35,810 nt of DNA from contig JAOLZA010000025.1 of the NCBI GenBank assembly GCA_028343615.1, positions 1 through 35,810 of the forward strand, read 5' to 3'. A program made the translations under genes and the position numbers. Shown here piece by piece: positions 936 through 2,972 of this stretch; the first letter of the stretch is position 1; each line of letters starts with the position of its first letter. Under the pieces are notes generated by a model, which saw nothing but the letters and a program-made list of their open reading frames with translations, had not been told where the DNA came from and did no database searches. The stretch comes from Verrucomicrobiota bacterium (GTDB taxonomy: Bacteria > Verrucomicrobiota > Verrucomicrobiia > Limisphaerales > UBA1100).

Positions 936-1012
936 TGGCGGGAGTGACGAGACTCGAACTCGCAACCTCTGGCGTGACAGGCCAGCGCTCTAACCAATTG
1001 AGCTACACCCCC
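936..1012 (-). tRNA. tRNA-Asp (GTC)
   Basis: The reverse complement folds as a 77-nt cloverleaf. The acceptor stem GGGGGTG pairs with CACTCCC with one G-T wobble, the anticodon arm is CTGGC-CTGTCAC-GCCAG with anticodon GTC, and the T arm holds GTTCGAGTC. The 3' CCA is encoded. A good promoter lies at 1032-1060. Confidence 0.95.
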
Positions 1013-1031: not shown

Positions 1032-1060
1032 AAGCTAATCCAAGCTGCCGATGCCGTCAA
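1032..1060 (-). promoter_or_regulatory. Sigma70-type promoter of tRNA-Asp
   Basis: On the minus strand TTGACG (1055-1060), a 17-bp spacer and TAGCTT (1032-1037) precede the tRNA 5' end by 19 nt. The -35 box matches TTGACA at 5 of 6 positions. The -10 box keeps only the most conserved T, A and final T. Confidence 0.6.
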
Positions 1061-1115: not shown

Positions 1116-1208
1116 AAAAAAGTGATCCGGGCAACAGACGCCAAGGAGGTGGGGGTGGAGAACCCCTCTGAAGAAACGTTCTGTCGCCCGGATCAAAGAA
1201 ATTGGTGT
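1116..1208 (-). ncRNA. Probable structured small RNA ending in a U-tract terminator
   Basis: On the minus strand TGATCCGGGCGACAGA (1180-1195) pairs with TCTGTTGCCCGGATCA (1123-1138) as a 16-bp helix with one G-U wobble. The enclosed 41 nt contain a second GAGG/CCTC plus GG/CC hairpin, and six Ts follow the long helix (1116-1121). The wobble is an A-C mismatch on the plus strand, which favours minus-strand transcription. No minus-strand gene lies upstream for it to terminate. A TTGACA box at 1238-1243 would place transcription start near 1208, though the -10 (CAGGTT, 1215-1220) is poor. It does not show the motifs I know for SRP RNA, 6S RNA or tmRNA. It may be only a stand-alone terminator. 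Confidence 0.45.
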
Positions 1209-1283
1209 CCGTTCAACCTGCCTGAAGTTGGCTGATTTGTCAATCGATGAATCTTCCACATCCTGTTCACCGACAGATTTCCC

Positions 1284-1329: not shown

Positions 1330-1404
<75 letters not shown>

Positions 1405-1481: not shown

Positions 1482-2972
<1,491 letters not shown>

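Follow-up and report, generated by a model that had tools for sequence, protein, structure and literature searches.

A candidate antisense small RNA with an anti-Shine-Dalgarno loop beside tRNA-Asp in Verrucomicrobiota

The alpha-r14 RNAs of Rhizobiales (the "cuckoo" RNAs, e.g., NfeR1) are described, in the excerpted text of PMC10746234, as carrying an ultraconserved unpaired anti-Shine-Dalgarno (anti-SD) motif on highly different stems and as being served by a sigma70-type promoter. In Caulobacter, the alphaR8 RNAs SisA-D are siblings with a short anti-SD core, located at adjacent or independent loci (excerpts of PMC12559287), and in Neisseria meningitidis the siblings NmsRA and NmsRB repress translation by means of UC-rich anti-SD single-stranded regions (excerpts of PMC5362039). 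In addition, partial texts of PMC10783764 and PMC6847099 deal with Bacteroidota ribosomes whose anti-SD is hidden, that is, SD sequences are scarce while the anti-SD is kept. Small RNAs of the PVC group have received little coverage; one review counts 8 annotated sRNAs for it (PMC9029176, in part).

The locus described here lies in a window (the whole stretch of DNA analysed, 35,810 nucleotides, a contig of a metagenome genome) of an uncultured Verrucomicrobiota bacterium belonging to the GTDB order Limisphaerales and family UBA1100, which are called the order and the family below. It resembles alpha-r14 in its nearly constant anti-SD motif, which is predicted to be unpaired, its highly different stems and its sigma70-type promoter sequence, resembles alphaR8 and NmsRA/NmsRB in having siblings with a short anti-SD stretch, and resembles the Bacteroidota case in that SD sequences look scarce in the lineage. 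The RNA is probably, with real room for doubt, a trans-acting antisense RNA that base-pairs through ACCUCCUU in the manner of the alpha-r14 and alphaR8 siblings.

Structure, strand and promoter of the RNA gene

The features of the locus are as follows:

1116..1208, minus strand: small RNA gene, predicted length about 93 nt, 5′ end near 1208 and 3′ end in the U tract
1180..1195, minus strand: 5′ arm of the outer 16-bp stem, from fold, complementarity and covariation
1123..1138, minus strand: 3′ arm of the outer 16-bp stem, from fold, complementarity and covariation
1167..1176, minus strand: UUUCUUCAGA, which makes up the 5′ half of the internal loop; U1 and U2 of it are predicted to pair with the opposite GG
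1152..1166, minus strand: inner hairpin GGGGU-UCUCC-ACCCC, from the fold; some siblings carry a different stem here
1141..1150, minus strand: 3′ side of the internal loop, ACCUCCUUGG, with ACCUCCUU predicted unpaired and GG paired
1116..1121, minus strand: U6 tract, seen in the sequence, which with the outer stem makes an intrinsic-terminator-like end
1238..1243, minus strand: TTGACA, −35 box of the small RNA gene, from the sequence and from counts over order loci
1215..1220, minus strand: presumed −10 hexamer CAGGTT (CAGATT, CAGCTT or CATATT in relatives), a weak consensus match
936..1012, minus strand: tRNA-Asp(GTC), downstream in the same direction, a conserved neighbour
1055..1060, minus strand: TTGACG box, presumed to belong to a separate tRNA-Asp promoter, with TAGCTT at 1032-1037
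1330..1404, plus strand: tRNA-Glu(TTC), divergently oriented and kept as a neighbour within the family

Beyond tRNA-Glu the next gene is der; at the contig edge, 4-654 on the plus strand encodes a fragment of a protein with a sulfatase-modifying-factor (FGE-like) domain. A sequence-only reading of this DNA had proposed an independent minus-strand small RNA of about 93 nt, built on a 16-bp helix with a strand-diagnostic G-U pair, an inner hairpin and a U tract, with TTGACA about 35 bases ahead of the predicted 5′ end and no minus-strand gene upstream. The anatomy agrees with it: the two arms are 94% complementary and 41 nt apart, with a single mismatch that reads A/C on the plus strand but G-U on the minus strand; 1166-1152 and 1121-1116 hold the inner hairpin and the U6 tract; and no credible gene reads into the RNA at the window locus. 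The hexamer CAGGTT was placed by a 17-nt spacer from the box at 1243-1238, which puts the predicted start near 1208 and the length at about 93 nt. That reading had not weighed the position of tRNA-Asp, which lies on the minus strand downstream in the same direction, nor did it mention four things described below: the conserved anti-SD loop, how widely tRNA-Asp accompanies the RNA, the multi-copy nature of the RNA family and the complement in the mraZ 3′ UTR.

The minus-strand fold of 1100-1260 beats 200/200 dinucleotide shuffles (z −3.34), and the plus-strand fold of the same region is nearly as good (z −3.17), since the sequence is a palindrome and both strands fold unusually well. Therefore, energy alone cannot pick the strand and comparison is required. 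A consensus promoter scan listed no minus-strand promoter, and a terminator scan with a loop limit of 8 did not list the hairpin. The reality of the element and its strand rest instead on covariation, on the upstream TTGAC[AT] and on strand-specific model scores.

First of all, the helix shows the compensatory changes by which the sequence-only reading had proposed to check it. Among nine distinct sequences (the family and the more distant L098), 98.6% of the cells are paired and 4/23 pairs are changed on both sides; among 71 distinct sequences, whose alignment was fitted to the model and so leans towards the tested structure, 94.9% of the cells are paired and 20/23 pairs are changed on both sides. 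In both sets 0/500 shuffles are equal, and the covariation score of the 71 sequences is 0.435, against 0.145 when shuffled and at most 0.107 when slid. The covariance model R1 gives the window, itself a member of the training set, 114.8 bits at 1115-1200; order loci score 84.5-115.3 bits on the RNA strand, a phage-like second copy (L020) scores 54.2, and the opposite strand, where listed, 20.8-28.8. Scores below about 30 bits are at the level of this opposite-strand control and were therefore set aside. A plus-strand GTG ORF of 26 codons, with an SD-like sequence in the hairpin, was also considered and seems unlikely: the observed changes keep the base pairing intact, and the inner stem differs among siblings.

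As for the promoter, TTGAC[AT] occurs 25-75 nt upstream in 30/48 order loci (related loci, hence not 48 independent cases), compared with 1/48 for its reverse complement. In the same interval it occurs in 0/23 phylum loci, among which TTGA lies 15-50 nt upstream in 15/23, with control words at 5 and 4. Most of the relatives that were read have U-rich 3′ ends by sequence comparison. The sequence thus carries the marks of an independent gene with its own promoter and terminator, namely TTGAC[AT], the stem with its U tract, and a separate TTGAC for tRNA-Asp. The helix is also conserved where the tRNA neighbours are kept, as the sequence-only reading had demanded: among 13 hairpin-bearing loci of the family (L028 being placed there by similarity), tRNA-Asp is present in 11 and divergent tRNA-Glu in 11, three of the four exceptions being contig ends; these loci were found by way of the RNA or der, and the test is therefore one-sided. 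In summary, comparison favours the independent small RNA of about 93 nt proposed in the sequence-only reading, and the gene and its structure appear almost certain, as sure as comparison permits.

Constant loop, distribution and sibling copies

Within the family, the stretch running from the stem to the U tract is much the same in the different genera and TTGACA persists, whereas the other promoter positions and the flanking DNA drift; between groups, the outer stems differ. The loop contains ACCUCCUU, which is the ribosomal anti-SD core. On its 3′ side, ACCUCCUUG[GA]C is found in 49/49 order and 23/23 phylum sequences, all of them best-scoring matches; in a deliberately chosen fairer set of 20 weaker order matches or matches from other orders, ACCUCCUUG is kept in 16 and absent in 4. 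In 89 of 90 members, that is, those having ACCUCCUUG, ACCUCCUU is predicted unpaired with a mean of 0.91 and a minimum of 0.76 (a pattern that includes part of the motif had served to select 17 of the 90), and the GG after it is predicted paired. The 5′ side behaves differently: ACGUUUCUUCAG is present in 48/49 best order sequences, 0/23 phylum sequences and 1/20 of the weaker or other-order set, several of which read ACGUUCUUCAG, one U shorter. SD pairing would not call for the constancy that the 5′ side shows within the order, and this constancy may point to a role in protein binding or tertiary structure.

The model searches covered genomes of the phylum, and in these the RNA is widespread across its own order and scattered in the other groups. 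A DNA search of 20 family genomes matched the RNA itself in 14, the copies of G016 and G017 being cut by contig ends; this tally excludes G010 and G018, which were matched solely through the mraZ complement. In the order, R1 has matches in 268/320 genomes, 143/154 good genomes and 111/118 genera, and about 100 of the 268 positive genomes have two to 11 matches at E 0.01 or better, counting weak ones. Of 286 genomes drawn evenly from the class, 79 match R1. Of these, 47 belong to the same order; among the other 32, 19 reach at least 40 bits and 13 lie at 25-33 bits, near the opposite-strand control, and are doubtful. The phylum draws, with the window's own genome counted, gave 26/288 genomes with R1 and 33/387 with a second model, R2, although most of the R2 positives had supplied sequences to that model; seven outside its training reach at least 50 bits (G597, G752, G766, G792, G806, G814 and G825). 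Members outside the class have the same core with different stems.

The window's own genome (59% complete) has one copy, and a repeat element was rejected as an explanation on this ground. Other genomes carry siblings. In G100, all seven copies keep CACCUCCUUG[GA]CG, while their outer stems are unrelated in five cases and the inner stem has been exchanged in three. In a set of 20 fetched regions, 17 pass the motif filter; L325 fails it and keeps ACCUCCUUG, and L328 (32.2 bits) and L329 (27.7 bits) lack ACCUCCUUG and look degenerate or false. The second copy in G003 (L020; contig C19, 1480-1562, minus strand) lies near a RecT-family gene and a gene for an HTH/transglycosylase protein, a phage-like setting. 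It keeps the inner core on a wholly different complementary outer stem, has GCCUCCUUGG in place of ACCUCCUUGG and is the sole sequence of the 90 without ACCUCCUUG. A phage origin was rejected: the core pattern, which would miss variants such as L020, was unmatched in viral_contigs. A DNA search of plasmids likewise gave no match to the locus.

Several variants were observed besides. A degenerate copy in G007 (L021; contig C5, about 1501-1543, plus strand) keeps CGTTTCTTCAG, lacks ACCTCCTT and is perhaps a pseudogene. Two shortened sequences from other orders of the same class (L235 and L237; 32.6 and 31.3 bits, near the opposite-strand control) keep the stem GATTCGGG and CCTTGGCGTG, and both ACCTCC and the usual inner hairpin are missing from them. 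Three further ones, also from other orders of the class (L388, L389 and L390), keep CACCTCCTTGG and have the loop closed by TTGGCATG rather than by TTGGCGTC/TTGGCGTG, with a matching 5′-side change in two of the three. Tandem pairs of RNA genes, about 100-140 bases from start to start, occur in G074, G070 and G718 (L330, L331 and L332); NmsRA and NmsRB also stand in tandem.

Candidate targets and alternative readings

If the RNA acts as an antisense regulator, a free-standing gene with a sigma70-type promoter and an intrinsic terminator would be transcribed into a hairpin RNA of about 93 nt, in which the outer stem would serve as scaffold and terminator. The working part would be the conserved internal loop (5′ side ACGUUUCUUCAG, 3′ side CACCUCCUUGGCGU) around the small hairpin, offering unpaired ACCUCCUU to purine-rich, SD-like RNA. 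In the cell, an RNA reading GCCAAGGAGGUGGG-AAACGU would be able to pair along the 5′ and 3′ sides of the loop at once, with the inner hairpin bulged out. Sibling copies, with other stems and a similar loop, would address the same type of site from other promoters. An antisense role thus leads one to expect mRNA partners with AAGGAGGU sites.

A candidate of this kind is found in the mraZ 3′ UTR, where 11/20 family genomes, from two genera, carry CAGACGCCAAGGAGGUGGG-NNNCGUG or a close variant. Just after the site comes a hairpin that is rich in GC and resembles a terminator, ahead of rsmH or another gene; in one genus, U-rich sequence follows this hairpin. In six genomes the complement is exact over 14 nt, and in the other five the changes are G-U-compatible only; five genomes have a 19-nt perfect complement to the 3′ side of the loop and the adjoining stem, from which the other six differ G-U-compatibly. 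Downstream of the site, the next nucleotides can form at least some pairs with the loop's 5′ side, so that the site matches the loop minus the inner hairpin. Beyond the RNA genes and the mraZ sites, the exact 14-mer has one match in 20 genomes, inside a coding region. Should pairing take place, its outcome would be to hide an SD-like site or to change the downstream hairpin; alternatively, the site would act as a sponge.

The extent of this complement is narrow. At the mraZ locus of one genome from a third genus, GCCAAGGGGGUG allows 12 pairs including one G-U, a run that does not exceed the locus's best background window. The complement was not found at mraZ in other families: across 22 loci (30 given, minus six without the ORF, L299 with a wrong ORF and L291 from the own family), the best runs of 6-12 nt are no better than the background windows. 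It therefore cannot explain the order-wide conservation, and the mraZ element was dropped as the explanation of the whole RNA family; it would at most be a target or sponge confined to this lineage, and the RNA's general function would lie elsewhere. In four of the 11 genomes that bear the site, no complete RNA gene was read: G011 and G018 have no match, the match of G017 meets a contig end, and G010 has a weaker match. RNAduplex energies with the mraZ region are not clearly beyond those of shuffles, because both the RNA and the mraZ region are GC-rich. When the mraZ-type complement pattern was searched in 313 order genomes, many of the matches listed were the RNA gene in antisense and many others chance-like. 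For an 11-nt complement in seven genomes of the genus, 30 of 37 places comprise 12 coding "AKEV" sites, 4 RNA genes, 5 mraZ sites, 4 sites ahead of an nrdR-like gene and 5 others. Four genomes of the genus (L338, L348, L357 and L359, near 1500) share GCCAAGGAGGT at a distance of 15-16 nt from a following ATG. The gene that starts there, which reads MRCPKC at its beginning where legible and looks like nrdR, is a possible further target.

The lineage itself looks SD-scarce, as judged from words 4-10 nt before the ATG of long ORFs, whose starts were assigned naively. In 457 kb around der in relatives, AGGAGG occurs there in 1/231 cases and GGAGGT in 2/239, no more commonly than the control words GGTGG (35/1754) and AGCAGG (7/415); in 90 kb of family loci the counts are 0/48 and 3/63, with controls up to 2/28. 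Among the der start matches, 6/64 have an SD-like tetramer. In the excerpted survey PMC10783764, two Verrucomicrobia are SD-scarce with CCUCC kept, and in its table Spartobacteria have a value of 10, Methylacidiphilae 15, Lentisphaeria 60 and Kiritimatiellae 63, presumably percentages of SD use. Since SD-like motifs are hardly enriched before starts, an anti-SD RNA is unexpected, and ordinary ribosome-binding sites would offer it few targets. SD scarcity may also be why such an RNA is tolerated, in that ordinary ribosome-binding sites would escape it.

This setting gives some room to two readings that start from the ribosome. According to the bolder one, which seems rather unlikely, the RNA would be a stand-alone copy of the ribosomal anti-SD, ancient in Verrucomicrobiota, that controls a few SD-bearing transcripts or competes for partners of the 16S 3′ end; if true, it would be a global translation regulator, tolerable only because ordinary mRNAs lack SDs. 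According to the other, which is given a slightly smaller chance, the RNA would mimic the 16S rRNA 3′ end; pairing with mRNAs would not be its main activity, and it would instead bind the factors that normally handle or hide the ribosomal anti-SD, such as a maturation factor or ribosomal proteins, or else sequester the few SD-bearing mRNAs. Such mimicry would suit a loop that equals the anti-SD core, is predicted unpaired and is very constant on both sides among best-scoring order matches, as well as the lack of SD enrichment in the 457 kb and the two SD-scarce Verrucomicrobia of PMC10783764. However, it has no known protein partner, the SD counts behind it rest on naive starts, and the 3/63 of GGAGGT in the own family stands above most controls. 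Moreover, if the distant members are Lentisphaeria or Kiritimatiellae, with values near 60 in the partial table of PMC10783764, the link to SD scarcity weakens.

The gene neighbourhood bears on a further alternative, in which the RNA would control tRNA-Asp in cis as its leader or attenuator and transcription from TTGACA would either end at the hairpin or read on into the tRNA. Protein-coding neighbours vary in kind and strand, while tRNA-Asp lies 45-156 nt downstream in the same direction in 33/54 order loci (11/13 in the family and 22/41 in the rest), as would suit a leader. Against this, the gap between RNA and tRNA-Asp contains a TTGAC box of its own before the tRNA in 33/33 cases, tRNA-Asp is missing from the place in 21/54 order loci (at least two of these being contig ends), and a tRNA was found in 2/20 of a set of fetched regions and, within the stretch examined, near 0/33 loci outside the order. 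The RNA is thus probably not a leader of tRNA-Asp, a role that would be very unlikely on these counts. As tRNA-Asp accompanies the RNA in 33/54 order loci and is rare elsewhere, the copy on its side looks like the one inherited in the order.

A little less probable still is that the element is a mere terminator or a mobile inverted repeat and no regulatory RNA. The stem followed by a U tract, the several matches in about 100/268 genomes and the L020 copy, with RecT encoded nearby in a phage-like setting, could all be accounted for in this way, but the loop stays nearly constant while the stems are replaced, a promoter-like box of its own lies upstream, the window's genome has a single copy, and no gene is credibly placed to be terminated there. 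A divergent 6S RNA, suggested by the long hairpin with an internal loop, hardly deserves credence: the model of the RNA has 86 positions against 187 for 6S, RF00013 has no match at the locus, and of 20 genomes searched 17 yielded a separate 6S-like gene, in 8 of them above the family cut-off, and the window's own incomplete genome yielded none.

Comparison with known RNA families

At the gathering cut-off, Rfam 15 finds only the two tRNAs in the window, and the best sub-threshold match over the RNA scores 16.9 against 52 bits. Ten distant loci searched against Rfam to E 0.5 gave three matches, none bacterial and none at the RNA; Acido-Lenti-1, an Rfam family entered in the table of PMC2864571 (seen in part), had no match there. 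Literature searches returned no earlier description of the RNA family among the matches listed, and a word look-up in the partial texts of PMC11109978, PMC8632094 and PMC8040213 returned no verrucomicrobial terms. A small-RNA family present in most genomes of the order and in part of the phylum therefore appears undescribed, and genomes can be annotated for it with the covariance model as it stands.

Among described systems, alpha-r14 is one to which the favoured antisense role can be compared; it too has several copies per genome, while its hosts use SD initiation and the present lineage looks SD-scarce. According to excerpts of PMC10746234, alpha-r14 belongs to another phylum and presents CCUCCUCCC in three hairpins, whereas the RNA described here has one ACCUCCUUGG in the internal loop of a single terminator-like hairpin. 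Membership in alpha-r14 was rejected on this compound hairpin with its one motif, and no such family appeared at lax Rfam thresholds. NmsRA and NmsRB differ in having three stem-loops, with the motif in a linker and an apical loop, and another sequence (PMC5362039, in part). For alphaR8, CrfA titrates SisA-D by complementarity, and the mraZ 3′ UTR might do likewise here; the differences are that alphaR8 is Hfq-dependent and its sponge is a separate sRNA, and in the excerpted text of PMC12559287 no sequence relation to the present RNA is shown. Finally, the Bacteroidota work on hidden anti-SDs describes, in the parts of PMC10783764 and PMC6847099 at hand, no anti-SD RNA. If the anti-SD loop of the RNA does work, a testable question follows, namely what role an anti-SD RNA plays where SD sequences are scarce.
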